22,799 nt of DNA from positions 1 to 22,799 of the IMG/VR virus record IMGVR_UViG_3300032562_002061. One strand, written 5' to 3'. Below, in pieces: positions 5,064 through 22,799 of this stretch. A program made the position numbers and the translations under genes. The notes under the pieces were generated by a model. It saw nothing but the letters and a program-made list of their open reading frames with translations. It had not been told where the DNA came from and did no database searches. Positions within the stretch are counted from its first letter, which is position 1. Each line of letters starts with the position of its first letter. This DNA comes from a virus.

Positions 5064-5068
5064 ACTAA

Positions 5069-7462: not shown

Positions 7463-7470
7463 GCAGGCAT

Positions 7471-8530: not shown

Positions 8531-8547
8531 ATTAGCTCAGATCCCAA

Positions 8548-9276
8548 ATGTCCAACGCCGTCTTTCCCGCCAACATCAAAGGCTTGACCTGGACGGTAAC
8601 TAAATCTTTCGAATTCGCCACCATCTCTCAGAAGTCGCCCAATCAGTACGAGCAAACCATCTCGCAGACGCAGAATCCCATCTGGCACTGGGTGCTGATT
8701 TACGACTATCTGTACGACGGCTTTGTCACTCCCAACGATCTGATGCCGTACGCGCCATACACGGACTTCCGGACGCTGCTTGGCTTCATGCTGGCGCGGC
8801 AGGGGATGTTCGACTCGTTTTTGTATACGGATCCCACGGATCACTTCGTGGGCCCGGGCGAAACGCTGGGCGTGCCGAATCCGCAAGCGCAGCTTCAGCT
8901 CGTCAACGACGGCGCCGGCAACTATTACTCGCCGATCCAGCGCAACATGGGCGGCCTGTTCCTGGAGGACATCACCGATCTGAACGGCGCGCTCGCGCTC
9001 TATCAGAACGGCGTGCTGGTGACCTCGGGCTATACGCTCATGGGGCCCGGCCTGGCGCTTCCTGGCTATTCGTTTCAGGGACTGTACGTCAAGTGGAGTG
9101 TCATCCCGGCCGCTCCGGTCACGGCGTCATTTAATTTCTACTTCCGAGTCAAGTGCGAACTCGACACTCAGGACTACGAGGAATTCATGGCGGGCCTGTG
9201 GACCATCGGCGGCTCCGGATCGAAGAACGGATCGGGGCAACTCAAGCTGATGACGCGGCGGCCGCCTACGGCTTAG
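8548..9276 (+). CDS. DUF2460-like distal tail protein (GTA g12-like)
   Basis: A 242-residue protein. It opens MSNAVFPANIKGLTWTVTKS, then a conserved-looking FRTLLGFMLARQGMFDSFLY with TDPTDHFVGPGE, followed by LQLVND and a second beta half ending CELDTQDYEEFMAG. That pattern (trimming of inputs, an L.GF..AR.G...F.F.DP.D block, then pairing of L.L) fits DUF2460, called the g12 distal-tail/tail-tip adaptor in Rhodobacter gene transfer agent. It is followed by DUF2163-like, NlpC/P60 and hub genes in the same order. No Shine-Dalgarno is visible. Confidence 0.7.
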   Translation: MSNAVFPANIKGLTWTVTKSFEFATISQKSPNQYEQTISQTQNPIWHWVLIYDYLYDGFVTPNDLMPYAPYTDFRTLLGFMLARQGMFDSFLYTDPTDHFVGPGETLGVPNPQAQLQLVNDGAGNYYSPIQRNMGGLFLEDITDLNGALALYQNGVLVTSGYTLMGPGLALPGYSFQGLYVKWSVIPAAPVTASFNFYFRVKCELDTQDYEEFMAGLWTIGGSGSKNGSGQLKLMTRRPPTA

Positions 9277-9300
9277 TCGGATGCGACGAGGTAGAAAACA

Positions 9301-10224
9301 ATGCGTCAAGTAATCTCCGGCTACCTTCAGGACTCGACCGCAGCGGCACAAGCTTATCTCCAGACGGCGCAACAACTCACCCTCCCAAATCTGTATCTGA
9401 TCGGCTACCCCGAGGACCCGAACGCGCTGTGGCTCACCGATTGGGAGTCCCCGATCTGGTGGCCGTGCTGGGGCAGCTCTGCGTACCTCCCCGCGAATAT
9501 CTCGCGCGGCGCGGTCCCGAGCAAAACGGGCTTGGACGTGGACACGCTCGATCTGACGTACACCCCGAGCTATGTGACCTACGGCCTCACTACGGCCACC
9601 GCAAACGTCTGGCAGGCCGCGCAACAAGGGCTGTACGATAACATCCCCGTGCGCGTGTGGACGTGCTATCTGCTGCCCGGCGGCGACGCCATGACCCTCG
9701 GGTGCTCGACGTGCTTCGGCGGGCGCATCGGCCGGGCAAAGGTGGACCGCGGCAAAATCGTCTTCACGGTCAACTCGTTTTTGGACGTGGTGAACCAGCA
9801 GCTTCCGCCGAACACAATCGAGATGTATTCGCAGACGGCCGCCTATTCCGGCGCGACGCCGCCGGCCGGCTTCTCGATCATCCCGCAGTTCAACGTGGAA
9901 CGCGGCGCGTCGACGACCGTCGTCGTCGGCGACTGCACAAATATCGGGCCGCATCACATCTTCGGCACGAACGTGCTGCGGGGCGGCTATCTCGTTTTCA
10001 ATCCCGGCTCGACGCTGGGGCCAACGAGCTGGTCGGCGATTCAGCAAAACGTGGAAGTGAATATCGGCGGAAACAATTACAACCAATTCGTCCTGTATGC
10101 GCCGCTGCTGTTTCCCCCGACGTTTCCAGGGGACACGTTTTACGTGAGCGCGCCCTCGCCGAACGGCGGGACGGAAGAGAACGGCTTCCTCTTTTTGCCT
10201 GCCCCAGCCATCGGCGGATCATGA
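9301..10224 (+). CDS. DUF2163 / phage BR0599-like tail hub protein (GTA g13-like)
   Basis: A 307-residue protein with GAGG 9 nt before ATG 9301. The middle shows the DUF2163 pattern: TGLDVDTLDLTYTP, then AAQQGLYDNIPVRVWTCYL, then a loop with FGGRIGRAKVDRGKIVF and LDVVNQQLPPNT. The end (PSPNGGTEENGFLFLPAP) is an extended beta region. Six cysteines are present, including a GCSTC pair near 130. In this family the protein builds the ring that joins distal tail to hub. The TGA overlaps the NlpC/P60 ATG (ATGA), so the peptidase is coupled to it. Confidence 0.7.
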   Translation: MRQVISGYLQDSTAAAQAYLQTAQQLTLPNLYLIGYPEDPNALWLTDWESPIWWPCWGSSAYLPANISRGAVPSKTGLDVDTLDLTYTPSYVTYGLTTATANVWQAAQQGLYDNIPVRVWTCYLLPGGDAMTLGCSTCFGGRIGRAKVDRGKIVFTVNSFLDVVNQQLPPNTIEMYSQTAAYSGATPPAGFSIIPQFNVERGASTTVVVGDCTNIGPHHIFGTNVLRGGYLVFNPGSTLGPTSWSAIQQNVEVNIGGNNYNQFVLYAPLLFPPTFPGDTFYVSAPSPNGGTEENGFLFLPAPAIGGS

Positions 10225-10709
10225 TTTATTACGACCTCGGCGGCCGGCGCGCGGCTCTTGTGGAGATCGCGAAGACCTTCGTTGGGACGCCTTACGTTTT
10301 GGGCGCGCGAGTCAAAGGCGCAGGAATTGACTGTGCAAGTTTTCTTGGTCAGTGCCTCATAGAATCGGGGCTGGCGACGGCAGAGTCAGTGTACGGCGGG
10401 CTCGAAGTCTACCACCAGGACTGGCACCTCCACGCGCCCGACGAGCGCTACATGCTGCGTTTGCTGCGGCACGCGCAGAAGGCGATGGAAGGCGTGGCCA
10501 GCAAGTCGTCGCGCATCGAGCCGGGCAACCTACTGCTCTGCCGCGCGTTCGGAACGCGGAAGTACTCGCACGGGGGAATAGTGATCAAGTGGCCGATGAT
10601 CCTGCACGCGATCGCGCCGTGCGTGCGGTGGGCGGACGCGACGCGCGATCCTATGTGGGCGCATCGGGAGATAGCGGTGTTCGATCCATTCGCAACGCGG
10701 ACCGGCTGA
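10221..10709 (+). CDS. NlpC/P60 tail-associated peptidoglycan hydrolase (GTA g14-like)
   Basis: A 162-residue protein. Residues 13-29 are VEIAKTFVGTPYVLGAR, followed by GIDCASFLGQCL with catalytic Cys38, and later YSHGGIVIKW with His117 and MILHAI with His129. Cys-His-His is the NlpC/P60 catalytic triad, which cleaves peptide stems in peptidoglycan. In tailed phages the enzyme sits at the tail tip and opens the cell wall for DNA entry. It is a single-domain version, with start overlapping the upstream gene (ATGA). Length is normal for the family. High confidence for family; tail location is from context. Confidence 0.9.
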   Translation: MIYYDLGGRRAALVEIAKTFVGTPYVLGARVKGAGIDCASFLGQCLIESGLATAESVYGGLEVYHQDWHLHAPDERYMLRLLRHAQKAMEGVASKSSRIEPGNLLLCRAFGTRKYSHGGIVIKWPMILHAIAPCVRWADATRDPMWAHREIAVFDPFATRTG

Positions 10710-10755
10710 AGGCACGGTCCGCGCGCGTTCCTCTCACCTTTTAGTCCGTTTCGCA

Positions 10756-10779
10756 CCTTCCTTTCTTTTCTTTCTCTTT
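10756..10779 (+). other. 24-base uninterrupted pyrimidine tract
   Basis: All 24 bases are C or T, in the 84-base gap before the tail-hub gene. It contains a mirror symmetry (TTTCTTTTCTTT). The hub start at 10794 has no Shine-Dalgarno. The tract could be an intramolecular triplex-forming or protein-binding element, or an A/G-rich antisense leader. No function is established. Confidence 0.5.
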
Positions 10780-10793
10780 ACAACACTACCAAA

Positions 10794-13700
10794 ATGATCG
10801 GCGGCAAACCTTCCTCTAAGGTCAAACCAGTCGCGCTTGGCACGGATGTAAACAGCGGCTCGTACGGCCAGACCATCCCGGTCGGGTGGGGCATGACCAA
10901 GGGCTCCGTCTATCTGATCTGGATGGCAAATCTCCGCCAGGGCAGCGGCAAGAAAGCGAAGAAATCGAAAGCTCCGCCCGATTACGTCGCGAACATCGAC
11001 GCGCTCGTCTGCACGAATCCTTGCATGGGGATTCTGCAGATGTATGTCAATCAAAACCAGTGGCTCCAGCTCAACTTCGTCGAGAATTCGCAGACATTCA
11101 CCAGCGGCAGCAAGCCCGCCTCTGTCACAGTCCCCGATAGCAAGCTGCTCACTGTGCTCGCGGTCACTGTAACCCTTCCTTACAATTTCAATTACAACGG
11201 CTCCGGCTCCGGGAACGTCACCTTCGACGATTACGGCGGGCAAGGTTCGGCGACGGTCAACGGCTCATATGAGATTCCGCTGTGGAACGCCGCGTGGAAC
11301 GGTCCCGACCCCGTGCACGCGTCGGCTTGCCGCAACGCTCCGTATACTTACTACTGGACTCCCGCCCTCGGTCAAACCATCCTTACGCCCTTCGCCGCCC
11401 TCGACGCTTATTCGCTGGGCGCGTACACGATCAACGTGTACTATTCGCAGATTCCGAATTTCAACCAGGTCTCGACGAACAATCTCCAGGTGACCGGCGG
11501 CTTGAATAATTCCAAGTCGGGAGCGGATGCGCCGTTGGGCGCCATGAACGCGTTTTTCGAGCCTACGCTTGGCGACGGTTCCGAATTCGCCGGCACCGAC
11601 TCGACCACCGGCGATCCGCTCGACGACGAGCAAGTGCTCTATCCGCACTACGCGGGTATGGGATCGGACGCGTTCGCGTTCGGCTCGACGCAAACGATGC
11701 CGAATTGCCAGGTGGAATTGCAGCTTCCCTTCGGCGTGAATCCGTCCGGGGACGCGGACTTCGCCGACATGGTCGAGGATTGCTTCTACGGCGCCACGCA
11801 AGCGGGGATCGGCAACGATGTTCCGCAGACCCCGATTCAGCACGGGCTGAATTGCGGGCAGCTCCCGGGCACCGTGCAGCAGGCAAACTATCAGTTTATT
11901 CAATCCATCGCGCCAAGCCCGAACACGTTCGCCTATCCGCTACCGAACGTCGCCGGCAACTGGCTGGTGGTGATCGCCGCGGGCCAGAATTCGGCTCCGC
12001 CCTCGATTTCCGACACCGCCGGCAACACGTGGACCCCGCTCTTCACGGGCAAAAACAATATCCAGATCTGGTACGCCAACGCGAAGGCGCACAACACCAA
12101 CGACCAGGGCACGGCCGTAACCATCACGATGGACTGGTTTGGCGAAGCCCTCGCGGAAATTGCGCTGCTCGAAATCGCCGGCGTGGACACGCTCGACGCC
12201 ACCGTCATCGCGGCGGGAACCACCGCCAGCATCACTACCAGCGGGGTGCAGGGCACGCCAATGTACATGCTCGCGTTCGCGGATTTCACCGCCAACACAA
12301 ACGCTGGCACGGTTCCCCCGGCTACGCTTTGGAGTTATTTGCTAAATCCGGACACGAATCCGGATGCCGCCTCGGAGGCCATGTTTCGCCTGCAGGCGCG
12401 CATCGTGAGCTGGCCGAACACGTATACTTACGTCTCGCCTCCAGTCACGCAGGGCATCACCATAATTAACGCCGGCAACGTGGCGCTTCTCGCTTTCAAA
12501 TGTTCGCAGCCTCCCGCCTATCCGCCCGCGCTTGGAAACATTATCGGCGACATCATCCACAAGCCCTCGCTGCAGGTGGTCCGTAACCAGTGCCGCGCCG
12601 CGGGATTGTTCGGCTCGCTGCTGCTCGACTCGCAGAGCAAGGGCTCCGATGTGATCGGCCAGCTTTACGAGGCAATGGACGCGTGGCCGGTCTGGTCGGG
12701 ATTCCAGCTTAAGTCGATCGCGCGATCGGAGGTCTCCGCGGTCGGCAACGGCGCCGTCTATTATGCGCCGACGTCGACCGGTCCGATCGTCAACCTCCAG
12801 GAAAGCGATTTCTATGTCGAGAACGAAAAGGACCCGCCCGTAACGGTCACCCGCAAGGCGCAGGTCGACGTCCCCGATATCCTTTCCGTGCAGCTCCCGA
12901 ACCGCGAATCCCAGTACAACGACATCGTGGTTTCGCAGCCCGAAACGGGATATGTGGCGCTGTTCGGCCCGCGCAAGGACTCGCCAAAAATGATGCGGAT
13001 GTTCCAGTCGCCGGCCGTCGCGCTGATGTATTTGGGCATTCAGATCCGGCTGAATAATTACGTTCGCAACTCCTACGAGTTCTCGCTGAACGCGAAACAA
13101 AAGCTGCTGGAGGCTGGCGACCTGATCACTATCCCGCTCGCCTCGACGATGCCTAATTCCATCGCGCCCGGCGGCGCCGCGCCCGTGCCCTATGTCCCCA
13201 TCCCCTTACGGCTGCTGTCGGCGGAGGAAGACGCGGACCACGGAATCAAGTGCACCGCGGAGCCATTCATCTACGGCTGCTACGCGCCGCTGCCACCCGT
13301 GGCAGCCACGGCCCAGGGAGGCTATGTCCCGCAGACCGGCGGCAACCCCGGCAGCGTCAACCCTCCGGTTATTTTCGAGCCGGTCCCGCGCCTGGCGGGC
13401 GGAGGCACGCAGACGGAATTGTGGCTGGTGGTATCGGGCGGCAAAACCATTCCCGGCCCACCTATCGTCACCCCGAATTACGGCGGCTGCTTTGTATACG
13501 TCTCTACCGATGGCGGCATTTCGTACAATCCCGCGCAACCTCTCACCAGCAGCGGGAGCGTCGTGGGGGGACCAACACCGCCCGCATCGAATGCGATTCT
13601 CGGAAACGGGATCACGGGCGAGGTAGGCAACGGCGGCAACATAGCCTACCTTGAGTGGCCGGCCGCGGATTCTCCGGATACGGTAAACGATCTGTATCTC

Positions 13701-15236
13701 GACCTCACCGAATCGCACGGCTCGCTTGAATCCTACTCCGTCGTCGATGAGGATCAGAACACCTATCCCTGCTATGTCGGGGGTGGTGCGACTACTCCGC
13801 TCTTCGTGCAGCAGCTCGCGATTGAAGCCCAGGGCGCCAGCTCCGCCGCCGGGCCATTTGCGAACGCGAACAACCTGGGAAACAGCATCCTTGTCGCCGT
13901 ATCCGTGTACCAGGGCAATCCGCTGGGCACAGTGAGCGTAGCCGATAGCAACGGGAACGCTTACATCCAAATCTGCAAGACGACCTTCCGCAACGACTTC
14001 GGAACAGACTCGGTCCTTTATGTTTTCTGCGCGTCTCTGATTAACGCGGGCGCCAACACCATCACCGCCAGTGTCACCGATGGCGCGGGAACCGGAGGCA
14101 CGCCCGAGGCCGTGATGTTTTGCGCCGCGGAGTTCTCCGACCTGGCCGCCGGCGCCTCGATCTTGCCAATTAACTTCGCGGTGAATTCCATCGATGGAAT
14201 CTCGTACCCCGTCGCGGATTTTCCGAGCGGAGCTTTTTCGGTTATCCAGGCGGGCGGGATCTACTTCGCCGCGGTCTACGACAAACAGAACGAGACCGAC
14301 GAATATGTGATCACGCCGGCTTTCGGCTGGCACCAGCGGGCCACCATCAACGGCTCTACCAACTCTGGCACGCTCGCGATTTTCGACGCGGCCTCGGGCG
14401 CGGCCTCCGCCCAGCAGATATTCGCCTCCACCGTGGCCGGCCACCCCGGCTCCGGAAGCAGCGCGGGCTTCCACATCGCGGCACTAAGCGTTAGCGCCGC
14501 GGAGACATCCTCGGGGATCCCTTACGAGCTGATGACATACGCGGTGGCGGATCTTACGTCGCCGAATCTGTATACACTAAAAGCCACCGGCGGTGGCACC
14601 AACCATCTGGACCGCGGCGTGGACGGAGCTCCGGCGCCGGGCGTGGGCGTGGCGCATGCGGTGGGGAATCGATTCGCGTTTGTGGGGCCGCCGTACCCGG
14701 GCATTTTCAAGATGGCTCTGGACCCGAGCTGGATCGGGCAAACGCTTTATTTCAAGTTCGCGGCATTCAACGCGTTCATCGGCAATGTCGAGGATCTCAC
14801 GGACTGCACGGTGTACGAGTACATGCCTACCGGGCTGCCCACCGGCGGGCCTGGCGGCGGCGGCACCAATCCGACCAGCTACACGACCAACCCGGCAAGC
14901 CCTCTCTCGAATCCGACGGCCACCACTATCGCGATGGCCCAGACCACCGTGCAATTCGCCTCGAATTCGGTGAACTACAACGCGCGGACTTTTACGATTC
15001 CGACGCCTTCGGTGCCGACCACCTACTATGTGACCATTACCGATCCGGGCTTCACGGGGGACACCGGATCGGAAACGAATCTGACGGCTATCTGCCAGAC
15101 CTCGGACGCGCTGGTGGGCGTGGCGGGCAACACATACATGGGTTCGATTGTCGCCTTGCCGGCGGGCGGGGGCACACAAGGCACACCTGGCGGTCTGCCT
15201 CAGACCGAATTTGTTCTGTTGATTAACGGCCAGTAA
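10794..15236 (+). CDS. Tail hub / host-specificity protein (phage-tail_3, GTA g15-like)
   Basis: A 1480-residue protein. The N-terminus (VALGTDVNSGSYGQTIPVGW, WMANLRQG, KKAKKSKAP) matches the opening of central tail-hub proteins of the phage-tail_3/gpJ type. Residues ~600-830 form the hub core (IIGDIIHKPSLQVVRNQCRA, QLYEAMDAWPVWSGFQLKSI). Two similar-looking beta-sandwich domains are inserted, at ~370-520 (NWLVVIAAG, ISDTAGNTWTPL, IWYANAKAHNTND) and ~1010-1190 (NSILVAVSV, VADSNGNAYIQ, LYVFCASLINAGANTI). They resemble concanavalin/CBM-like domains and are probable receptor- or glycan-binding modules. The C-terminus is a Gly/Thr/Pro-rich stalk. It follows the NlpC/P60 gene as in gene transfer agents. 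Confidence 0.8.
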   Translation: MIGGKPSSKVKPVALGTDVNSGSYGQTIPVGWGMTKGSVYLIWMANLRQGSGKKAKKSKAPPDYVANIDALVCTNPCMGILQMYVNQNQWLQLNFVENSQTFTSGSKPASVTVPDSKLLTVLAVTVTLPYNFNYNGSGSGNVTFDDYGGQGSATVNGSYEIPLWNAAWNGPDPVHASACRNAPYTYYWTPALGQTILTPFAALDAYSLGAYTINVYYSQIPNFNQVSTNNLQVTGGLNNSKSGADAPLGAMNAFFEPTLGDGSEFAGTDSTTGDPLDDEQVLYPHYAGMGSDAFAFGSTQTMPNCQVELQLPFGVNPSGDADFADMVEDCFYGATQAGIGNDVPQTPIQHGLNCGQLPGTVQQANYQFIQSIAPSPNTFAYPLPNVAGNWLVVIAAGQNSAPPSISDTAGNTWTPLFTGKNNIQIWYANAKAHNTNDQGTAVTITMDWFGEALAEIALLEIAGVDTLDATVIAAGTTASITTSGVQGTPMYMLAFADFTANTNAGTVPPATLWSYLLNPDTNPDAASEAMFRLQARIVSWPNTYTYVSPPVTQGITIINAGNVALLAFKCSQPPAYPPALGNIIGDIIHKPSLQVVRNQCRAAGLFGSLLLDSQSKGSDVIGQLYEAMDAWPVWSGFQLKSIARSEVSAVGNGAVYYAPTSTGPIVNLQESDFYVENEKDPPVTVTRKAQVDVPDILSVQLPNRESQYNDIVVSQPETGYVALFGPRKDSPKMMRMFQSPAVALMYLGIQIRLNNYVRNSYEFSLNAKQKLLEAGDLITIPLASTMPNSIAPGGAAPVPYVPIPLRLLSAEEDADHGIKCTAEPFIYGCYAPLPPVAATAQGGYVPQTGGNPGSVNPPVIFEPVPRLAGGGTQTELWLVVSGGKTIPGPPIVTPNYGGCFVYVSTDGGISYNPAQPLTSSGSVVGGPTPPASNAILGNGITGEVGNGGNIAYLEWPAADSPDTVNDLYLDLTESHGSLESYSVVDEDQNTYPCYVGGGATTPLFVQQLAIEAQGASSAAGPFANANNLGNSILVAVSVYQGNPLGTVSVADSNGNAYIQICKTTFRNDFGTDSVLYVFCASLINAGANTITASVTDGAGTGGTPEAVMFCAAEFSDLAAGASILPINFAVNSIDGISYPVADFPSGAFSVIQAGGIYFAAVYDKQNETDEYVITPAFGWHQRATINGSTNSGTLAIFDAASGAASAQQIFASTVAGHPGSGSSAGFHIAALSVSAAETSSGIPYELMTYAVADLTSPNLYTLKATGGGTNHLDRGVDGAPAPGVGVAHAVGNRFAFVGPPYPGIFKMALDPSWIGQTLYFKFAAFNAFIGNVEDLTDCTVYEYMPTGLPTGGPGGGGTNPTSYTTNPASPLSNPTATTIAMAQTTVQFASNSVNYNARTFTIPTPSVPTTYYVTITDPGFTGDTGSETNLTAICQTSDALVGVAGNTYMGSIVALPAGGGTQGTPGGLPQTEFVLLINGQ

Positions 15237-15237
15237 A

Positions 15238-15471
15238 TCACGCGCATCTGGACCGGGCGTGAAAGATAGGGAGCCGCGCGCCCTCAACCGCATGCTGCAC
15301 CTTTTTTCGTTCGATGCCTTCGCCGCACGCCGGACAGTCGAGCAAGCGATGGCACGGGCACTCGCAGCGCGCCTGGCGATTAGATGCGATGGTGCTCACG
15401 CGGTAGCAAACGCCCGCATCGCGCGCTACGCACGAACACCCCTGACGTAAGACGGCCTCGGCCCAAAGCAT
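15238..15471 (-). CDS. Antisense small gene G: Cys-rich zinc-finger-like protein
   Basis: A 77-residue protein starts at ATG 15471-15469. Cysteines cluster as GCSCVARDAGVC, CECPCHRLLDCPACGEGIER. The CPAC-type pairs suggest one or two zinc sites. The stop TGA (15240-15238) lies one base after the hub's TAA (15234-15236). The start lies 20 bases before the fibre gene's ATG, so it fills the 255-base gap. A TATACT hexamer is 8 nt upstream of the start, as for a leaderless transcript. A longer open frame reaches 15597, but its extra residues lie antisense to the fibre gene. Confidence 0.65.
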   Translation of the reverse strand: MLWAEAVLRQGCSCVARDAGVCYRVSTIASNRQARCECPCHRLLDCPACGEGIERKKVQHAVEGARLPIFHARSRCA

Positions 15472-15479
15472 CGCAATCA

Positions 15480-15487
15480 AGTATAAC
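15480..15487. promoter_or_regulatory. Putative divergent -10 element (AGTATAAC)
   Basis: The + strand reads TATAAC at 15482-15487, 4 nt before ATG 15492. The minus strand reads TATACT (from 15485 down to 15480), 8 nt before the ATG of gene G at 15471. One A/T core could serve both directions, as in reported symmetric bidirectional bacterial promoters. The + strand spacing is short. No clear -35 on either side. Confidence 0.3.
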
Positions 15488-15491
15488 TCGC

Positions 15492-16547
15492 ATGCCTTCC
15501 CCTCAACAGCAGGATTTGACGAACGCGACGCCGGCGGCCCCCTCGGGCTACCAGAATGTCTCGTGGCAGCACGACAGCTCTCTGCCGCGGAATGCATCCG
15601 CCAACGTGCCGATCACCGGCGGGGTAAACGTGCAGACCGGCGGCTATACGATCCTCACGACCGACTGCGGCGGGCTGATCGTACACAACAGCGGATCGGC
15701 CGGCACGTTCCTGCTTCCGGCGGCTCCGCCGTTCACGCAATTCTGCGTATTCATCGAGAATCAGGGCGCCGGCATCCTCACGCTTTCGCCCAACGGCCTG
15801 AACATCGATGGCGGGTCGAGCAGCATCACCCTCGCGCAGAATAACGGGGTATACGTTGCAACGGATGGAATCAACTACTTCAGCTCGCGAGGCGAATCCG
15901 TTGCACCAACCACGATTACCCTGGAAACTAACAGCGTAAACAACAGCTCGCAAACCGTGCTCAATCTGGAGTCTGGGAGTGGAATCACGGTGGCGAATCC
16001 CAGCGGAGGAAACGTCACCATCACATACAATGGCGGCGGGATTTCAGGCGGTGGCTCGCCGAACATCGCGCCAATCGGTGGTCCCACTGCCACGAACAAT
16101 AATTGGTCGAACTTCACCCTCGCCGGGTATTTCCCGGCGGGTCTGATCATCGCCGCGGCGAACACCTGGAAGATTGTAATCTCAAATGTCAGCGCCTCAT
16201 CCGTTGGACACGTGGCGGCATTCGTAGTGCGCCGCACGTTGCCGGGGAGTCCCACCTATATCGATTCCACGACGATCAAAGTGTCGGGGGCCAGCGCCTA
16301 CAATTTCCCGGTTGGCCAGCTCACGAGCGATGTAATCTCGCTGGCCGTCGACGCGGCGCACGATTACTGGTTCCTTTGCTACTTCGACTCGACCGCTGGA
16401 AATACCGCGCTGGTGATTCCTGCCGGAGTCACGCCCTACGCTTGCTATTACAACACCGGAAACAAAACGGCGGACGCCAACACTGCGGGTGTGCTTGCAA
16501 ATCAGCGCGCCGGGCAATTGTACGTTCAGTGGCCGTGGGTAAGTTAG
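15492..16547 (+). CDS. Tail fibre / appendage protein
   Basis: A 351-residue protein. ATG 15492 is chosen because the frame upstream is antisense to gene G. Residues ~40-130 carry a motif seen in many phage appendage proteins: YTILTTDCGGLIVHNSGSAG, TFLLPAAPPFTQFCVFIENQ and GILTLSPNGLNIDGG, then NNGVYVATDGINYFSSRG. The rest is Asn/Ser/Thr/Gly-rich beta structure with a Gly-rich hinge (GGGISGGGSPN) and a C-terminal beta domain ending in WPWVS. It is the last structural gene before the promoter of the cargo gene, and is probably a distal fibre or hub decoration. Receptor binding is inferred from position and composition. Confidence 0.6.
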   Translation: MPSPQQQDLTNATPAAPSGYQNVSWQHDSSLPRNASANVPITGGVNVQTGGYTILTTDCGGLIVHNSGSAGTFLLPAAPPFTQFCVFIENQGAGILTLSPNGLNIDGGSSSITLAQNNGVYVATDGINYFSSRGESVAPTTITLETNSVNNSSQTVLNLESGSGITVANPSGGNVTITYNGGGISGGGSPNIAPIGGPTATNNNWSNFTLAGYFPAGLIIAAANTWKIVISNVSASSVGHVAAFVVRRTLPGSPTYIDSTTIKVSGASAYNFPVGQLTSDVISLAVDAAHDYWFLCYFDSTAGNTALVIPAGVTPYACYYNTGNKTADANTAGVLANQRAGQLYVQWPWVS

Positions 16548-16552
16548 ACAGC

Positions 16553-16583
16553 TTGACACCCGCCCCACGCGCCGTGCTATCGT
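16553..16583 (+). promoter_or_regulatory. Sigma70-like promoter for the cargo gene
   Basis: A perfect -35 TTGACA (16553-16558) is followed after 19 bases by TATCGT (16578-16583), a 4/6 -10. An alternative hexamer CTATCG gives 18 bp. It begins 5 bases after the fibre gene's stop. The next ATG is 110 bases downstream, leaving a ~100-base leader that carries the palindrome at 16643-16660. The only consensus -35 noticed in the late arm. Confidence 0.6.
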
Positions 16584-16642
16584 CTTTTCTGTCGCCCGCG
16601 GAGTGGGGAGACTTTGCGGGTCAAATCGCTTTCCGCCCTTGC

Positions 16643-16660
16643 TTCCCGTGTACACGGGAA
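16643..16660. promoter_or_regulatory. Perfect 18-bp palindrome in cargo-gene leader (operator candidate)
   Basis: TTCCCGTGTACACGGGAA is perfectly self-complementary. It lies between the sigma70-like promoter and ATG 16693, at about +53 to +70 from a start near 16590. Such a site suits a dimeric repressor blocking elongation, or an RNA hairpin. It is followed by no T-run, so a terminator role is unlikely. A second, imperfect pair (CCCGC...GCGGG) precedes it at 16600-16620. Confidence 0.5.
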
Positions 16661-16692
16661 CGCTTCAGCCTCTTAGTCTCTGAACCCACCTT

Positions 16693-17400
16693 ATGAAAAT
16701 CATTGCGCTTGTGATGTCTCTCGTGAGTATGCATTGGTGTATACAACTGGCGGCCCAGACAGTGCCCCTCGGCCCCGTCGTCAACATCGATATCCCGAGC
16801 ATCAATCAGATTCACGGCTGGGCCGTCAGCTCGGTAGCGATCGCGCGCGTGGCTCTTACCGTCGATGGCGTTGCCGTCGCCACCGTTCCAGTCCCGCGCG
16901 GCGACGTCTGCAAGGCCTACGCCGCGCCGGGCTGCCCCTACGTGGGATGGGAAGCCCCGTGGCTGCCCACGTTCAACGTGGCGCACGTAATGACGATTAC
17001 GGCCACGGACGCGAACGGACGCGCGGCTTCGCAGTCGCTTGCATGGGGATGGGGGAGTATCGCGGGCGCGCCAGGCGCGCAAGGTATACAAGGTATACAA
17101 GGACCGCCAGGCGCGGCCGGTTCTCCCGGAGGCGGGACGGGCGGCGTGTATACAATCAACTGCCCGAACGAGTGGCTTTTGGAGACGCTGACATTCGCCG
17201 GCGGATCCGCGTGGAATTTCGCGGGGGTAGTGAATGGCTCGGCGGTGGATGTGCGGGTGAACGGCGCGACGCTGCCTACCGTGTGCTACGGGGTATCGCG
17301 GGTTTCAACGACCGGACCGGATGCGATTGTGTTCGTCGTGGCGCTGGGCTGCCCCGCCGTTCCATCCGCTGGCGCGGATGTGGAAGCGTTCCACTTCTAG
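16693..17400 (+). CDS. Secreted/exported cargo ('moron') protein: Ig-like plus collagen-like repeats
   Basis: A 235-residue protein. Residues 1-22 are a signal peptide (basic K2, hydrophobic core IIALVMSLVSMHW, end LAAQ). Residues ~25-118 resemble an Ig-like domain with DVCKAYAAPGCPYVGW at 71-86, a signature I associate with Acidobacteriota secreted proteins. Residues 125-151 are a collagen-like stretch with seven Gly-X-Y triplets (GAPGAQGIQGIQGPP). A C-terminal beta domain (152-235) has two cysteines. Collagen-like segments usually trimerise. It has its own promoter and leader palindrome, unlike the structural genes. Signal peptide and promoter suggest expression as a cell-surface or secreted factor in lysogens (inference). 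No Shine-Dalgarno is visible. Its TAG shares CTAG with the convergent operon. Confidence 0.7.
   Translation: MKIIALVMSLVSMHWCIQLAAQTVPLGPVVNIDIPSINQIHGWAVSSVAIARVALTVDGVAVATVPVPRGDVCKAYAAPGCPYVGWEAPWLPTFNVAHVMTITATDANGRAASQSLAWGWGSIAGAPGAQGIQGIQGPPGAAGSPGGGTGGVYTINCPNEWLLETLTFAGGSAWNFAGVVNGSAVDVRVNGATLPTVCYGVSRVSTTGPDAIVFVVALGCPAVPSAGADVEAFHF
17082..17099 (+). repeat. Tandem 9-bp repeat with GTATAC
   Basis: The 9-mer AGGTATACA is present twice head-to-tail (17082-17090, 17091-17099), encoding GIQGIQ in the collagen-like stretch. Each copy contains the GTATAC palindrome. It could be a simple coding repeat, or a site for a factor recognising GTATAC. Confidence 0.6.
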
Positions 17401-17642
17401 CCTTCGCGCGGCTTCGCTCTGCGCCGCGCTTGGGCGCGTTTCTGCTGGCGATCTACGGCCGCCCGCCGGCAATCCGGGCAACGAAAGTTGCGCGTCCGGA
17501 CGCTGGTCTCGATCTGCACGTGGCAGTCGGTACACTCGCGCGCGAAAGTCTCGCGGGCAGCTTCGGCGACGGTAGGCACGCCGCCGGGGCGCGCCGTCGA
17601 AGGGGGAAACAGGAATTCGCGGATGGGGCGTTGCGCTTTCAT
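17397..17642 (-). CDS. Small zinc-binding-like protein, last gene of minus operon
   Basis: An 81-residue protein, coupled by ATGA to the upstream gene at 17639. It has CTDC and FRCPDCRR separated by ~14 residues, forming a CxxC-x14-CxxC zinc ribbon, followed by a basic Arg/Lys/Gln-rich tail (DRQQKRAQARRRAKPRE). This suggests nucleic-acid contact. Its TAG (17399-17397) shares CTAG with the convergent stop of the cargo gene, so no room remains for a terminator between the operons. Confidence 0.7.
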   Translation of the reverse strand: MKAQRPIREFLFPPSTARPGGVPTVAEAARETFARECTDCHVQIETSVRTRNFRCPDCRRAAVDRQQKRAQARRRAKPREG

Positions 17643-17911
17643 GTGATTCGCCGCGGCTCAACCATCATCGACGGATCGTTGCCGAAGCGAAAGAATCGAT
17701 CTTTCAGCGGCGCGTCGATAAACTCGACCTCGATCATGTGCGGCGGCTGCGGATCGACATCGATGCCTAGAAGCGCGCTATGCATTGCGACCAGCTCGTC
17801 CATCGCCAACCCCAGAACATCATTGTCATCCACGAGACTGTCGGGAAGGTCCTCGCGATCCTCGAACACCAGCGCGCCGCGTAGCCAGCCGCGAAATATG
17901 ACGCGGGTCAT
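17639..17911 (-). CDS. Hypothetical acidic small protein
   Basis: A 90-residue protein, ATG 17911, overlapping the stop of its upstream neighbour and the start of its downstream one by ATGA. It contains VFEDREDLPDSLVDD, PPHMIEVEFIDAPLKDRFFR, FGNDPSMMVEPRRIT. The latter pattern looks like a small conserved phage domain but I do not recognise a name. No membrane segment or catalytic motif. Predicted cytoplasmic. Confidence 0.65.
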   Translation of the reverse strand: MTRVIFRGWLRGALVFEDREDLPDSLVDDNDVLGLAMDELVAMHSALLGIDVDPQPPHMIEVEFIDAPLKDRFFRFGNDPSMMVEPRRIT

Positions 17912-18192
17912 TCGCTTTCCTCCGCGAGCCGGGCAATGCGATCAATTTCGCTGTGGCGCACGCATACCTTTTCTCCGGTGCAAGCGCACACGCGCGGGAA
18001 GCGCCGCAGGTAGCAGCCGGCCACCGGGCGCTGCGTTTCCGTCGCCAGATACTCCCGCAATCGCTCCAGCCATTCGCGCTCCCAGCGATCCTCCGCGCCG
18101 TGGCGCCTTTCCCAGCGCGCGATCAGCACCATCTGCGCGTAGGCGCGCGCCCGCCAGCCACGCGCCATGCTGCGCCGTAGCTCGGCTCTCAT
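17908..18192 (-). CDS. Hypothetical Trp/Arg-rich protein with C-terminal Cys cluster
   Basis: A 94-residue protein, coupled by ATGA at both ends. The N-terminal ~60 residues are a basic, Trp/Arg-rich helix (RGWRARAYAQMVLIARWERR, EREWLERLREYLATE). The end has GCYLRRFPRVCACTGEKVC, then VRHSEIDRIARL, a possible metal site of C-C-x-C-x4-C-x2-H type. The function is unknown. It could be a small nucleic-acid-associated factor (inference). Confidence 0.6.
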   Translation of the reverse strand: MRAELRRSMARGWRARAYAQMVLIARWERRHGAEDRWEREWLERLREYLATETQRPVAGCYLRRFPRVCACTGEKVCVRHSEIDRIARLAEESE

Positions 18193-18425
18193 TGGTTTGG
18201 CCTCGGCTGGCTTCGCGGGCGATCATCGTCCGGCGCGCGCCGCACGAGCACAGCTTTCTCGACGACGAACTCGTAGGGTAGCCACCACCGCGCGCGGCTC
18301 CCGCGTGTCCTCGCGAATGTGACCCTGCCATCTTTCGTCTCGACCACATAGCAGTCGCATGTCCCTCCGCCGTGAAGAGGGATGCGAAGCAGCGCACCGG
18401 AATAGATCTCGCGCGAGTCCATCAT
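18189..18425 (-). CDS. Hypothetical small beta-rich protein
   Basis: A 78-residue protein starting at ATG 18425, which overlaps the stop of the 54-residue gene upstream (ATGA). GGGAGG lies 5 nt before it. The sequence MMDSREIYSGALLRIPLHGG, DCYVVETKDGRVTFARTR, WWLPYEFVVEKAVLVRRAP looks like a small SH3-like barrel with a Pro/Arg-rich tail. No known family. Conservative start choice: a longer frame reaches 18470 but would run through the upstream gene. Confidence 0.6.
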   Translation of the reverse strand: MMDSREIYSGALLRIPLHGGGTCDCYVVETKDGRVTFARTRGSRARWWLPYEFVVEKAVLVRRAPDDDRPRSQPRPNQ

Positions 18426-18586
18426 CGCCGCCTCCCGTGAATCAGCGTGAACGCGAACGCACGCAGCCACTCCGCGGCCGTGCGCTTGCCGCCCATCGCG
18501 CAGCTTTTCGGCGATCCGATCGCGACGGCCAGCGCGAGCGCGAGCGCGGCAATTGCGGCTGGCATCACACTCCCAGCATCCATCAT
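18422..18586 (-). CDS. 54-residue membrane or secreted small protein
   Basis: ATG 18586 overlaps the stop of the nuclease gene (ATGA), and its TGA overlaps the next ATG. The translation is MMDAGSVMPAAIAALALALA, VAIGSPKSCAMGGKRTAAEW, LRAFAFTLIHGRRR. Residues 9-23 are an Ala/Leu hydrophobic helix, then GSPKSC and a basic amphipathic end. Exact ATGA coupling on both sides makes it a likely real gene. It may be a signal-anchor membrane peptide. Family unknown. Confidence 0.55.
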   Translation of the reverse strand: MMDAGSVMPAAIAALALALAVAIGSPKSCAMGGKRTAAEWLRAFAFTLIHGRRR

Positions 18587-19476
18587 TCCGCTTTCCCCTG
18601 CTTCACCCGCCCCCCAAACTCGTCCTCACACTCAGCCCAGAAGTTGCAATACTTCCGGCTGCACAGATTACTCCCCCGATTCGGAAGCACCATCCCATCG
18701 CGCATCGCCTGCTGCACGCGCGGGTATACACGCTCCGTCATCAGCCGGTCCGCCGCGGAAACAGTGTAGCTCATAGTCACAATCGACGGCGTCTTGGTGC
18801 AGACGGCCGTATCGATCCGCGCCTCGCCCGAGGCCTGCGGCAGGAGCTGCGAATACGTCGCGATCTGAAACCCATACGACGCGGCCACACCCGCGGGCTT
18901 GCGCGCCGCGGATTTCAAGTCGATGATCCGGCCGCTGGTGTCGAGCAGGTCCACGATGCCGTGGATCTCGACGCCGCCGATGCGGCCGGCCACCGGCAGC
19001 TCGACGCCGGCCGGATCGATCTTCGGCGCTACCTCGCCCAGATAGCGTGCGGTGATGGCGGCCGCCTGGTCGCGCAGCGCGTCGACGTCGTCGCCCGCGA
19101 CGAACAGCGCGCCGTCGCACTCCGACTCCCACGCGAGCGCGAACGGCTGATCGAGATCCGCGAACGTGGGCGCGTCGCCGGCGAGCCGTGCGCGGTAATA
19201 CATCTCGACCACCTGGTGCATCACCCGGCCGCGAATCAGCGCGGCGCCGGGCGGGTCGGGCAGATTAAGGCCGGTCGAGTACCACCATTTTGCGCTGCAA
19301 TCGAGGTACGTGCGCACCTGGGACGGCGAGAGAACCTCGGCGACCGCGTCCGCGATACCTCCGGAGGCCTCCGGACGCGCTGGCGGGCAGCCAGGCGCTG
19401 CGGTTGCGGTGTTTTTGCGCGGTTGGCGAACGGCGGGGGCGCATGCGCGCCCCCTTGTCTTCGTTTGGCGGATCAT
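18583..19476 (-). CDS. RecB/Cas4-like PD-(D/E)XK nuclease with Fe-S cluster
   Basis: A 297-residue protein starting at ATG 19476, with GGAGG 8 nt upstream and overlapping the upstream stop (ATGA). After an Ala/Pro/Arg-rich N-terminus (1-45) it reads LSPSQVRTYLDCSAKWWY (Cys60), GRVMHQVVEMYY (His87), HGIVDLLDTSGRIIDLKSAA (Asp176, Asp186-Leu-Lys188) and QIATYSQ (Gln204). That is the His-Asp-DxK-QxxxY array of the RecB/Cas4/AddB nuclease clade. C272-x4-C277-x5-C283 with Cys60 form the four-Cys Fe-S site of Cas4/AddB. It is likely a phage recombination exonuclease. The basic N-terminal extension is atypical. Confidence 0.85.
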   Translation of the reverse strand: MIRQTKTRGRACAPAVRQPRKNTATAAPGCPPARPEASGGIADAVAEVLSPSQVRTYLDCSAKWWYSTGLNLPDPPGAALIRGRVMHQVVEMYYRARLAGDAPTFADLDQPFALAWESECDGALFVAGDDVDALRDQAAAITARYLGEVAPKIDPAGVELPVAGRIGGVEIHGIVDLLDTSGRIIDLKSAARKPAGVAASYGFQIATYSQLLPQASGEARIDTAVCTKTPSIVTMSYTVSAADRLMTERVYPRVQQAMRDGMVLPNRGSNLCSRKYCNFWAECEDEFGGRVKQGKAE

Positions 19477-19490
19477 TGCGGAGGCCTCCG
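19362..19490. repeat. Repeated 12-bp palindrome CGGAGGCCTCCG
   Basis: The palindrome occurs at 19362-19373 (within a 16-bp one, TCCGGAGGCCTCCGGA, 19360-19375) and 19479-19490. The copies are 117 bp apart, exactly 39 codons. The second carries the GGAGG Shine-Dalgarno of the nuclease. The enclosed segment encodes the atypical N-terminal extension. This could be an in-frame insertion or duplication by microhomology, or an autoregulatory site pair. Confidence 0.5.
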
Positions 19491-19745
19491 GTCAAACCGT
19501 GAATCGCGGATTAATACGGCGCCGTCCTTGACGCTGCCGCGAGCCTGGAAAAACCGTCCGCAGCAATCGCATAGACGCGAACCCGGAACGTATCCCGCCT
19601 CGTGCCAGCGGATCGTGCCACCGGCACAAACCGGACAGGGAACGTCGGTGACGTTAGCCCAGTAGTCTGTCTGAGAGACGACGGGCATAACGTAGGCAGC
19701 GTGTTTCCGCACGCCGTCCCCGAGATCAAGCTCCTCATATCTCAT
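19473..19745 (-). CDS. Small zinc-ribbon protein
   Basis: A 90-residue protein, ATG 19745 overlapping the upstream stop and its TGA overlapping the nuclease ATG. It contains CPVCAGGTIRWHEAGY and LCDCCGRFFQA, that is CxxC-x17-CxCC, a zinc ribbon. The N-terminus (MRYEELDLGDGVRKHAAYVM) is an ordinary beta/helix mix. It is probably a small nucleic-acid-binding or transcription-associated factor, co-expressed with the nuclease. Confidence 0.7.
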   Translation of the reverse strand: MRYEELDLGDGVRKHAAYVMPVVSQTDYWANVTDVPCPVCAGGTIRWHEAGYVPGSRLCDCCGRFFQARGSVKDGAVLIRDSRFDRRPPQ

Positions 19746-20590
19746 CGGTGGCCCCCGTTCGCGGCGGCTTGCTTACCGATCATCAGTGTATTTACTAAGC
19801 GGCAGTGCTCGTCGCCGTTGAACGCGGGCAGGTCGTATCCCTGCTCTTTCGCGAACGCGCGGGCCTTGACGCACGCTGCGATTACGGTGCAGAGCGCGTC
19901 CTCAAGCATCGTCGCGGAGCGCTGTGGCGCGTGCGCGGCGGTGGTATTATGATTCTGCTGTGTTTCCGAAGCTGTGGTCTGGGCTGCAGCCGGCGGCGCG
20001 GGCGGGTGAAGACCGTTCGCGCCGTTCGTTTTTGGCTTGGCCTTCTTCGCCTGCAGCAGCGCGAGTGAATCGCGAAGCTGCTTCTCCAACTCGCTGGCGG
20101 GCTCGGCCACGCGGCCCTTCGCCAGCTTGCGCGCCTCGATCAGCATGATCGAGTCCTCCAACTGCTTCATCAGCGCCGCGTCGTCGGCCGCGGCCGGCGG
20201 CGGTGGGGTGGGTGGCTCCGGATCGGCGGGCTCAGGTGGGTACTGCGCGCTGCTGCGCCGCACCGCGAATGTCCCGTCGCCCTGCTCGCCCGTGAGGCCC
20301 ACGCGGGAGAGGAACCAGCGCACGTTCTTGCGCCCGCCGGGCTGGGGCACATCGCGCTTCACGATCTCGATCAGCTCGCCGGCCTGTATGCCGGTCGAGC
20401 GAATCTGATCGTTGAAGATGTTCCCGACCGCCTCGCTCACATAAAACAGCTTGTCGTCGGTCGTGGAAAAAAGGTACTGCATCTGGGGCTTGCCGCGCAC
20501 CTCGAATTTCGAGGGCGACGGCTTGCCCTCCGCGTAGCGCAGGCGCAGGCGGACCGGAATGTTTGTGGAGAACGTAATCTTTTCAGGCAT
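19742..20590 (-). CDS. Unrecognised DNA-metabolism-region protein (282 residues)
   Basis: ATG 20590 has GGAGG 6 nt upstream and overlaps the upstream stop by 8 bases, so I chose it over ATG 20617. Residues 1-110 are beta-rich (KITFSTNIPVRLRLRY, QMQYLFSTTDDKLFYVSEAV, LIEIVKRDVPQPGGRKNVRW) and could be an OB-like fold. A Pro-rich linker follows (115-135), then two related helices (KQLEDSIMLIEARKLAK and KQLRDSLALLQAKKAK), a Gln/Ala/Thr-rich linker and a C-terminal helical domain (226-272, with DLPAFNGDEHCRLVNTLMIG). Placement next to a recombination nuclease suggests an ssDNA-binding or annealing partner (inference). No confident family. Confidence 0.6.
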   Translation of the reverse strand: MPEKITFSTNIPVRLRLRYAEGKPSPSKFEVRGKPQMQYLFSTTDDKLFYVSEAVGNIFNDQIRSTGIQAGELIEIVKRDVPQPGGRKNVRWFLSRVGLTGEQGDGTFAVRRSSAQYPPEPADPEPPTPPPPAAADDAALMKQLEDSIMLIEARKLAKGRVAEPASELEKQLRDSLALLQAKKAKPKTNGANGLHPPAPPAAAQTTASETQQNHNTTAAHAPQRSATMLEDALCTVIAACVKARAFAKEQGYDLPAFNGDEHCRLVNTLMIGKQAAANGGHR

Positions 20591-20762
20591 CGCGTTCCTC
20601 CTCCGAATCGTCATCACTCTCTAAAATCCGCACCGTCTCGTAGCCCTTGGCGGTCATAGCGATCGCCGCTTCCTCCGCGCGGGCACGCGAGCGGTAGGGG
20701 CCGGACGACATTTCGCCCCCCGCCCGATTCGAATAATTGGATACTGCCGTATACACTTTCAT
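20583..20762 (-). CDS. Small protein of the GP[FY]-x-SR-x2-AE type (paralogue 1)
   Basis: A 59-residue protein. ATG 20762 follows GGAG 9 nt upstream. An alternative ATG at 20810 adds MEAVRGSRVIELEKKH. It reads MKVYTAVSNYSNRAGGEMSS, GPYRSRARAEEAAIAM, KGYETVRILESDDDSEEERD. The GP-aromatic-x-SR block followed by an AE helix and a closing V-R-I strand is shared with the 71-residue protein at 21120-21335. A compact alpha/beta fold with an acidic end. Function unknown. Confidence 0.6.
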   Translation of the reverse strand: MKVYTAVSNYSNRAGGEMSSGPYRSRARAEEAAIAMTAKGYETVRILESDDDSEEERDA

Positions 20763-20924
20763 GTGTTTTTTCTCCAGCTCGATTACCCGCGAGCCGCGGA
20801 CGGCCTCCATAAGCGCTGGCCAGGCGCGCGAACGTTACCGCTCGCTTTCTGCTAGTGGCGTCCTCGCCGAATCCATCCGAGTCGCCGTCCCACTGGATCT
20901 GCGGGTGCGTCCCGCGCGCCGGGC

Positions 20925-21074
20925 TCAAAAGCTGCGCCCTGCCGCTTCATGCGGCGGGTCATTCTCCGCGTCGGCATCGGCGCATGTGCGACACAGGACC
21001 AGATCGTCTCCGCAGAAGCCCTCGGACTCGGGAAATTCGGCTCCGCAATCTTGGCACGTCCTTATTTCGTCCAT
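20925..21074 (-). CDS. 49-residue zinc-ribbon mini-protein
   Basis: ATG 21074 has GAGAGG 5 nt upstream. Protein: MDEIRTCQDCGAEFPESEGF, CGDDLVLCRTCADADAENDP, PHEAAGRSF. Spacing CxxC-x16-CxxC with an extra Cys between is a canonical treble-clef/ribbon zinc site. Its TGA overlaps an in-frame TTG (20928) of an uncertain frame downstream. It is too short to be spotted by simple length cut-offs. Probably a regulator or DNA-contact factor (inference). Confidence 0.7.
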   Translation of the reverse strand: MDEIRTCQDCGAEFPESEGFCGDDLVLCRTCADADAENDPPHEAAGRSF

Positions 21075-21119
21075 TTCATCCTCTCCATCCCCTGTATCGC
21101 TGGGGGAGCGGATCGCAAC

Positions 21120-21335
21120 TCACTTCTCTCCAGGGAGGTTCCCACCATGCACTCTGACTTCCGCCGCCTGGATCGTTGAGCGCGCGGACAACTGCACCAC
21201 ACACTGCTCCGCCGCCTCGCGTGAGGCGAACGGGCCGAAGGTTTCCAAATACTGCCCCCCGGCATTTGGATTCTGTCGTTTCTCGCGGTCGGAAATGCCG
21301 ACCTGGCGCTGCTTCGTTTCGATTGTGAAATACAT
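21120..21335 (-). CDS. Small protein of the GP[FY]-x-SR-x2-AE type (paralogue 2)
   Basis: A 71-residue protein. ATG 21335 has AGAGGA 5-6 nt upstream. It reads MYFTIETKQRQVGISDREKR, GGQYLETFGPFASREAAEQC, VVQLSARSTIQAAEVRVHGG. The order of strand, loop, GPFASREAAE helix and a closing EVRV strand matches the 59-residue protein at 20583-20762. The two are likely paralogues. Function unknown. A long open frame to 21500 extends upstream but has no RBS and crosses the neighbouring gene. Confidence 0.65.
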   Translation of the reverse strand: MYFTIETKQRQVGISDREKRQNPNAGGQYLETFGPFASREAAEQCVVQLSARSTIQAAEVRVHGGNLPGEK

Positions 21336-21391
21336 CGATTCCTCTTTTTTGGCCTCCTTCGCGCTGGCCAGGCGCCGCGTTGTTACGCGCG

Positions 21392-21514
21392 TCAGAATTT
21401 TCGAATCTTGCGTCCGGAGATCCGTACGAACTCCCCGCGATTGTCGCAGTAAACGGCGCGGATCTGACCGTCCGCACACATCCGCATTCCGACCAACCAT
21501 TCCGTGTTTTTCAC
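21392..21514 (-). CDS. 40-residue hypothetical protein
   Basis: GTG 21514 overlaps the stop of the upstream gene (GTGA) and has a strong GGGAGG 4-5 nt upstream. It reads VKNTEWLVGMRMCADGQIRA, VYCDNRGEFVRISGRKIRKF. Strongly basic at the C-terminus, with two Cys that could be half of a metal site. A longer frame begins at 21598 but has no comparable RBS. Family unknown. Confidence 0.55.
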   Translation of the reverse strand: MKNTEWLVGMRMCADGQIRAVYCDNRGEFVRISGRKIRKF

Positions 21515-21711
21515 GCGGCCTCCCTTTCTGCGTCCTTCATCGCCGCTTCGGCGCAAGCAATCGCCGTGCGGGCACTCCACAACAATCTCGATCTGCACTC
21601 CTGCGTTCGCTGCGAGTCTCCCGTGAGCCTATCGGCGCGCGCCCGTAGGCGGCGGGCCCGTGTTTGCCAGCGGGCGGCCTCGGTGGTGTAGCTGCGGGCG
21701 AGGAAGGTCAT
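21511..21711 (-). CDS. Basic helical small protein
   Basis: A 66-residue protein. ATG 21711 overlaps the upstream gene's stop (ATGA). It is one long charged helix or helix-turn-helix-like stretch (TEAARWQTRARRLRARADRL, SRLLWSARTAIACAEAAMKD), basic and Ala/Arg-rich. The fold would suit nucleic-acid association or a small coiled-coil. Not identified. Confidence 0.6.
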   Translation of the reverse strand: MTFLARSYTTEAARWQTRARRLRARADRLTGDSQRTQECRSRLLWSARTAIACAEAAMKDAEREAA

Positions 21712-21956
21712 GCCGGTATCTCCTGACAAAGAGGGCAATAATCGCTCAGCGGAGCGTCCACCCAGTTGTCGCCGTCGTGATAGCTGAGATCGTCTCCGTC
21801 GAGCGGCCCGCTCTCATACTGCTCGACAGTCAGTTCCGAGGCAGTGCAGCGATTCCAGTTGCGGGACATGAAACACTCCTCTTGGACGTGCCCGTCGTGC
21901 ATTTCAGCGACGTGGATGTGCTCGTTGGAAAATCGGCGGACTTTATAATCGGGCAT
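21708..21956 (-). CDS. Acidic small protein with terminal Cys pair
   Basis: An 82-residue protein, ATG 21956 sharing TAATG with the upstream gene's TAA. It reads MPDYKVRRFSNEHIHVAEMH, DGHVQEECFMSRNWNRCTAS, DAPLSDYCPLCQEIPA. A CPLC pair at the end, with earlier Cys/His, could bind a metal. Rich in Asp/Glu. Function unknown. Probably co-expressed through translational coupling. Confidence 0.6.
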   Translation of the reverse strand: MPDYKVRRFSNEHIHVAEMHDGHVQEECFMSRNWNRCTASELTVEQYESGPLDGDDLSYHDGDNWVDAPLSDYCPLCQEIPA

Positions 21957-22342
21957 TATGCAACCTCCCGATAATCCCTATAATCCAATTCCCACTGCAT
22001 CGACGCGGCCGGCTTCCGCAGCGGCTCCGACGTATACACGTCCGCGATTGTGTAGTCCGCGAGCACCCGCGCCATGATCGCGGCGGCGGGCTCGAGGGCG
22101 GGGACAATCGCCGGCAGCCGGTCCACGTATGGATCGCGGTGGCGGCAGTTCGGGCACTCGAAGAGCAGGAACTCCTCGTCGCCCATCTCCCAGCAGAGAT
22201 CGAGCAGCCGTGGTTCGCCGATCCAATGGCATACCGGGCACTCCCAGGTCGATTCCGGTTCCTCGGGCTCGGGCGGGTCGTACGCGCCGCAGTAGCGGTC
22301 GTACTGGTCGGTGGTGGCGCCGTCGGGCATGTTCCAGCTCAC
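21956..22342 (-). CDS. Zinc-ribbon protein (128 residues)
   Basis: GTG 22342 overlaps the upstream gene's stop (GTGA) and has GGAGG 7 nt upstream, so I preferred it to ATG 22330. Residues ~35-75 contain WECPVCHWIGEPRL and LFECPNCRHRDPYV, a CxxC-x29-CxxC zinc ribbon. The C-terminal half is helical (AIMARVLADYTIADVYTSEP, MQWELDYRDYREVA). Probably a small nucleic-acid-associated factor. Family not recognised. Confidence 0.65.
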   Translation of the reverse strand: MSWNMPDGATTDQYDRYCGAYDPPEPEEPESTWECPVCHWIGEPRLLDLCWEMGDEEFLLFECPNCRHRDPYVDRLPAIVPALEPAAAIMARVLADYTIADVYTSEPLRKPAASMQWELDYRDYREVA

Positions 22343-22644
22343 TCCGACACCTCCCCTTCGAGCGCTGCCAGATCCGCCGGCAGCTCGTGGCCGTTGGCGA
22401 TCAGCCAGCGCGTCGCCTCGTGGTTGCTCACCCACTCGGCGTGGGGCGTGCTCCCCTGCCACTGGCTCTCATGCTCGATGTAGTACCGCCCCTTGCGCGA
22501 GCGGTAGAGCGTCTGGTGATTCCACTGGCTCCCCGTGGCCACACTGATGTGATTGTTGCCGTTCCAGCGCGTCGCTTCCCCCCACATCGCGCTTCTGTTT
22601 TCCGTCTTGACTACCGTTCCGTCGTCCATGCGATACGTTGACAT
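22339..22644 (-). CDS. Hypothetical protein, first recognised gene of the minus operon
   Basis: A 101-residue protein. ATG 22644 has GGGAGG 7 nt upstream, a strong RBS. Reads MSTYRMDDGTVVKTENRSAM, WGEATRWNGNNHISVATGSQ, RSRKGRYYIEHESQWQGS, then a helical end HEATRWLIANGHELPADLAA. It looks like a small beta domain followed by a helix. Family unknown. The operon's promoter is expected in 22645-22799 or beyond the window edge. I see no clear -10/-35 there. Confidence 0.65.
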   Translation of the reverse strand: MSTYRMDDGTVVKTENRSAMWGEATRWNGNNHISVATGSQWNHQTLYRSRKGRYYIEHESQWQGSTPHAEWVSNHEATRWLIANGHELPADLAALEGEVSE

Positions 22645-22799
22645 CGTTTTTCCTCCCGCGTTTCCGCGTTCGTGATCTCGCGCGGCCTTCGCCCGCGCCT
22701 GCGATTTTGGAGCGGGGGGTACGAGAATGCGAGCAGCAGCGCATTTCCTCCGCTCGCGCGAAGGCCCCCCGCGTAAGTTAGTCCGCCGTGGGCTGGGCG

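Follow-up and report, generated by a model that had tools for sequence, protein, structure and literature searches.

A candidate exported adhesin with an acidobacterial Ig-like domain at the end of the late operon of a soil phage

The DNA analysed here (hereafter the window) is the entire 22,799-nt stretch of a 22.8-kb IMG/VR phage record. Its rightward late operon encodes a head-tail adaptor, DUF2460 and baseplate-hub-like proteins, a 1480-aa tail tip with a Phage-tail_3 domain (10794-15236, plus strand), which serves as a marker of this phage group, and a fibre (15492-16547, plus strand; homology makes the start at 15492 likelier than one at 15384). The operon ends in a gene that a reading of the sequence alone had placed directly after the fibre gene, and this ORF proves to be real: it runs from an ATG at 16693 to 17400 on the plus strand and encodes a protein of 235 aa, P0001, in which a signal-like N-terminus is followed by an Ig-like domain, a run of Gly-X-Y triplets and a unique C-terminus. 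The late operon runs tail to tail against a leftward operon that includes a PD-(D/E)XK exonuclease gene, and the stop of the first convergent ORF (17397-17642, minus strand) overlaps that of P0001 by two bases. Neither a tRNA nor an Rfam family was detected in the window. The head-tail adaptor homologue (phrog_442; 787-1848) also carries an Ig-like domain, of the TIG/IPT type, at its N-terminus.

The first 21 residues of P0001 (16693-16755, plus strand) resemble a signal peptide, with cleavage predicted between MKIIALVMSLVSMHWCIQLAA and QTVPL (LAA/QTV). This and all other signal calls given here derive from a simple n/h/c-region rule written for this analysis and not from SignalP; 1.8% of random N-termini with the composition of mature P0001 pass it, and 0.2% reach the score of P0001. 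The h-region contains histidine, tryptophan, cysteine and glutamine, which counts against export; the signal peptide of the sequence-only reading is retained as a prediction. Further candidate starts lie at residues 8 and 13 (M8 and M13), and no Shine-Dalgarno sequence precedes the ATG or either of these alternatives. Such sequences are absent from most late plus-strand genes and present in about half of the leftward genes.

Residues 28-120 (16774-17052, plus strand) form the Ig-like domain, which is delineated by profile, alignment and structural model and contains two conserved cysteines, C73 and C81. Against a profile built from 64 host domains picked by motif, with P0001 left out, it scores 60.6 bits (E 2.7e-18), the best of 2000 shuffles reaching 10.8 bits; the P0001 frame is the only one of the six to match this model, and the next best score in the window is 3.3 bits. 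When aligned with 31 host domains, P0001 retains all eleven invariant columns, including the cysteine pair and the CPxVGW core (an invariance that by definition counts P0001 itself), at an identity of only about 25-45%. AlphaFold2 predicts an Ig-like fold for residues 36-120 with pLDDT of about 80-93, and structural comparison ranks Ig-type domains, with the IgY CH2 domain at Z 8.7 and rmsd 2.5 over 91 residues; Foldseek searches of PDB and BFVD with the P0001 model gave no match under E 0.001. The Ig-like domain noticed in the sequence is thus borne out.

The family to which this domain belongs is characterized by the motif DVC..Y..CPxVGW; the search pattern was modelled on acidobacterial proteins and was then put to the test by a genome scan. 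In 84,980 species genomes, all 24 matches bear acidobacterial names, namely Acidobacteriaceae, Acidobacteriia, Bryobacteraceae, Bryobacterales, Terriglobia and Paludibaculum. The profile finds members in 68 of 257 genomes of the order to which one Bryobacteraceae genome (G002) belongs; in a sample of 396 genomes spanning the phylum, P0001 alone as query finds matches in 3. The family is found only in Acidobacteriota, mainly in Bryobacterales. The host proteins are mostly 700-1750 aa long with tandem repeats, several of them starting with a signal-like N-terminus. A name for the family was found in neither Pfam nor NCBIfam, and no host protein with the whole architecture of P0001 was found; the suggestion of a captured host gene accordingly holds for the Ig domain and not for the gene as a whole. 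Motif and profile searches of viral contigs yielded no other carrier, in collections that may omit records near the window, and a widespread viral Ig family is not supported by this result. Since no viral contig matched the motif, capture of the domain by this phage or its near relatives would be the simplest account. Given the distribution of the Ig family and the presence, in one Bryobacteraceae genome from this host set, of a homologue of the tail tip (E 6e-197), these sequence relationships point to a host in Bryobacterales, and the host-derived Ig domain offers a usable marker linking an otherwise anonymous soil phage to this order.

Downstream of the Ig domain, residues 125-146 (17065-17130, plus strand) comprise seven Gly-X-Y triplets, recognized by eye. 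The collagen-like stretch claimed earlier is present in this sense, but it scores 10.7 bits against Pfam Collagen, below the cut-off of 27.2; it also matches a tail protein family, phrog_819, at E 0.013. The C-terminal 89 residues (147-235; 17131-17397, plus strand) contain three cysteines, are modelled with low confidence and have no detected relatives; a search for this part in 396 genomes of the phylum gave no match and, being run without a positive control, is uninformative. Relatives of P0001 were found neither in IMG/VR, using a peptide pattern, nor among GenBank phages, and a comparison with plasmids gave a single chance-level match (E 0.5). The architecture is known from a single contig.

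The gap between the fibre gene and P0001 measures 145 nt and contains a promoter-like site (16553-16583, plus strand), which is weak. The exact TTGACA at 16553, 6 nt past the fibre stop, accords with the consensus -35 element reported previously; its partner, TATCGT with an upstream TG, agrees with the -10 consensus at only 4 of 6 positions across a long spacer of 19 nt, and a standard scan allowing 16-18 nt found no promoter in 10000-20000. Under a looser rule, chosen after the site had been seen, it is the sole match in the window with 0.18 expected. The leader also contains a perfect 18-bp palindrome, TTCCCGTGTACACGGGAA (16643-16660, plus strand), without a second copy in the window. Since 44 of 200 simulated windows contain an 18-bp palindrome, this one is notable solely for its place in the leader, where it is a possible operator. 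The leader RNA shows no unusual degree of structure (z -0.94); with this value and the lack of Rfam families in the window, a riboregulator is unsupported.

Examination of the same phage and its relatives revealed further ORFs with signal-like starts beside tail genes. A sibling contig of 28.7 kb (L056) is 100% identical to the window over 1-11068 and adds 17.7 kb upstream, where two overlapping ORFs of 580 and 513 aa both have signal-like starts. The 580-aa ORF contains repeated SAADWSSFNAKG-type segments, which we take to be of the kind found in tail fibres. In two relatives with tail tips about 60% identical, L058 and L060, a signal-bearing ORF (477 and 321 aa, respectively) lies one to three genes beyond the tail tip and begins 1-10 nt after a tail or fibre gene; both relatives encode integrases, whereas the window and the sibling contig yielded none. 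A more distant Bryobacteraceae contig, L067, has a 487-aa signal-bearing ORF, likewise one to three genes beyond the tail tip and before an endolysin-like ORF, and one Bryobacterales genome has two contigs with signal-bearing ORFs after an ORF of 1650-1770 aa. In the phage L002, no such ORF follows the tail tip; the C-terminal half of its fibre, which has no signal, shares 41% identity with the exported-type L060 protein over 270 aa. The same module recurs in L080 on the first of three signal-bearing ORFs that lie in a row (2215-6197) after a portal-like ORF. This sharing of a module among L060, L080 and L002 is the best clue that the exported-type proteins may be adhesins of the fibre kind. 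P0001 itself has no domain in common with the other signal-bearing ORFs; the 580-aa ORF of the sibling contig did not match the L060 protein, BLASTP shows no similarity between the L058 and L067 spikes, and a search with the N-terminal domain of the fibre brought up no additional phages.

The pattern extends to cultured phages. Tunturi 1 (L069, PP887698) and Tunturi 2 (L070, PP885685) each have five signal-bearing late genes (gp12, gp13, gp14, gp16 and gp17; 10371-23028 and 9802-22744, respectively), including genes annotated as tail spike or pectin lyase and, in Tunturi 2, also as tail fibre. Tunturi 3 has no signal-bearing late gene, and in Tunturi 4 the only signal-like start is on a 219-aa ORF near its endolysin. 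The main text of the paper describing these phages mentions neither signal peptides nor mass spectrometry, and the open-access literature searched, where absence is weak evidence, yielded no paper describing signal peptides on fibres of acidobacterial phages. As controls we used seven phages of other phyla, at least two of them with related tail tips. Of their late genes of at least 145 aa, 5 of 98 pass the signal rule, all encoding 155-208 aa, among them lambda lom and a pair of adjacent N4 genes, one of which is the N-acetylmuramidase. Among genes of at least 210 aa, a cut chosen after seeing the data in small, hand-picked sets, none of 70 in the controls passes, versus 4 of 15 in Tunturi 1. 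Counting by hand the signal-bearing genes at most three genes from a tail tip, a set too small for the comparison to reach significance, gave p 0.27 against the controls. Cysteine makes up 2.18% of the signal-bearing proteins versus 0.80% of the remaining late proteins in these phages (Mann-Whitney p 1.8e-5), in hand-picked sets that count related sequences separately and include a possibly spurious ORF at 7538 of the window. The occurrence of the pattern in Tunturi 1 and 2 makes it directly testable.

Comparison with known systems helps to place P0001. With the exported multi-Ig proteins of Bryobacterales and Terriglobia it shares the Ig domain, the eleven invariant columns, the cysteine pair and the signal-like N-terminus. 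It differs from them in having one significant domain in 235 aa instead of mostly tandem repeats in proteins of 700-1750 aa, four and not five residues between the tyrosine and the second cysteine, an added collagen-like stretch and unique C-terminus, and a location in a phage; it thus matches the family at the domain level, by profile and two-cysteine motif, and lacks the tandem repeats. With the genes of L056, L058, L060, L067, L080 and Tunturi 1 and 2 it shares a signal-like start and tail-module position, the features that define this set here (it is not an established family), as well as a cysteine-rich, K/R-poor composition and a variable distal module; within the set, only P0001 has the host Ig domain and a long upstream gap with a promoter-like site. 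The gene for lambda Lom likewise follows directly on a tail tip gene, with J on one side and the side tail fibre genes on the other, and Lom has a signal peptide, that of P0001 being predicted. Lom is an outer-membrane beta-barrel (PMC12309495), whereas P0001 is predicted to be Ig-like plus collagen-like, and its model shows no barrel, with a confident Ig-like domain and a low-confidence C-terminus. The Ig-like domain also recalls virion proteins such as T4 Hoc, and a short Gly-X-Y stretch occurs in many phage fibres; the repeat of P0001 falls short of the Pfam cut-off that would place it with the collagen-like fibres. We know of no cleavable signal peptide on virion proteins with such Ig-like or collagen-like parts.

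Computation shows how the domains are laid out, that the Ig family originates from the host, where the gene lies and that predicted signals recur on fibre-like genes. From this we propose that P0001 is probably a Sec-exported, fibre-type accessory adhesin of the phage tail module with a host-derived Ig domain, and one of several predicted signal-bearing, cysteine-rich, fibre- or spike-like proteins encoded beside tail genes in Acidobacteriota phages. The signal peptide would direct it to the periplasm, where the Ig domain, taken from the exported Ig-repeat family of the host, might close its conserved cysteine bridge; a short trimeric stalk may be provided by the Gly-X-Y stretch, and a tip that binds the host surface by the variable C-terminus. 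Tailed-phage virions assemble in the cytoplasm, and an exported virion part would therefore need to be attached after lysis; for the same reason, fibre-like proteins with export signals call for an explanation such as late attachment, decoys or surface coating. An encounter of P0001 with virions or host surfaces at lysis appears the most likely of these fates, ahead of a free decoy or receptor blocker or display on the lysogen surface, though we favour it only tentatively. A broader and rather doubtful generalization is that many Acidobacteriota tailed phages send part of their spike and fibre set through the host Sec system, fold it with disulfides in the periplasm, and let it attach to virions, or cover cells and debris, no earlier than lysis, P0001 being a member with a host Ig domain.

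The sequence-only reading, whose description of the gene is largely right, had instead favoured a lysogenic-conversion factor on the premise that virion-type proteins normally lack signal peptides. This premise fails, as fibre- and spike-like genes of Tunturi 1 and 2 and of the present phage group often carry predicted ones; a signal peptide alone is hence no mark of lysogenic-conversion cargo, and what survives of the argument is the predicted export signal and a possible promoter of its own. A moron that the prophage expresses and the lysogen displays or secretes would fit the 145-nt gap with its promoter-like site and palindrome, the integrases of L058 and L060 and, by analogy, the position and signal peptide of lambda lom. 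We nonetheless consider it unlikely, given the weak -10 element and long spacer, the absence of an integrase from the window and sibling contig, and the equivalents in L058 and L060, which follow a tail or fibre gene too closely to leave room for a promoter and look like a fibre module.

That P0001 is an ordinary virion fibre protein assembled with the tail in the cytoplasm, its N-terminus being an anchor or assembly segment or translation starting at M8 or M13, would agree with the tail-module position, the Gly-X-Y stretch and the alternative starts, none of the starts having a Shine-Dalgarno sequence. At least five unrelated fibre-like proteins of the group, however, have signal-like starts that are independent of one another and place small residues at the predicted cut, the signal-bearing proteins are enriched in cysteine and the Ig family stems from exported proteins, which together make this reading quite improbable. 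Very improbable, in our view, is a passenger, host DNA acquired recently that does nothing for the phage: the Ig domain is of a host family, and the gene is found on a single contig without viral relatives, but its ORF is intact, stop to stop against its neighbour, and no host counterpart of the C-terminal part emerged from the uncontrolled search of 396 phylum genomes. Moreover, the identity of about 25-45% means that the domain is not a fresh copy of any sampled host domain.

The sibling contig offers two further observations. Positions 1-45, just before its signal-bearing fibre-like ORFs, look like the 3' portion of a tRNA gene, with the T-arm GTTCGATTC; this may be a phage tRNA or an attachment site. 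Its head genes include a glycosyltransferase-like ORF (15702-16847; PF13439, E 2.4e-6, just below the cut-off), and a glycosyltransferase is likewise encoded among the head genes of Tunturi 4.
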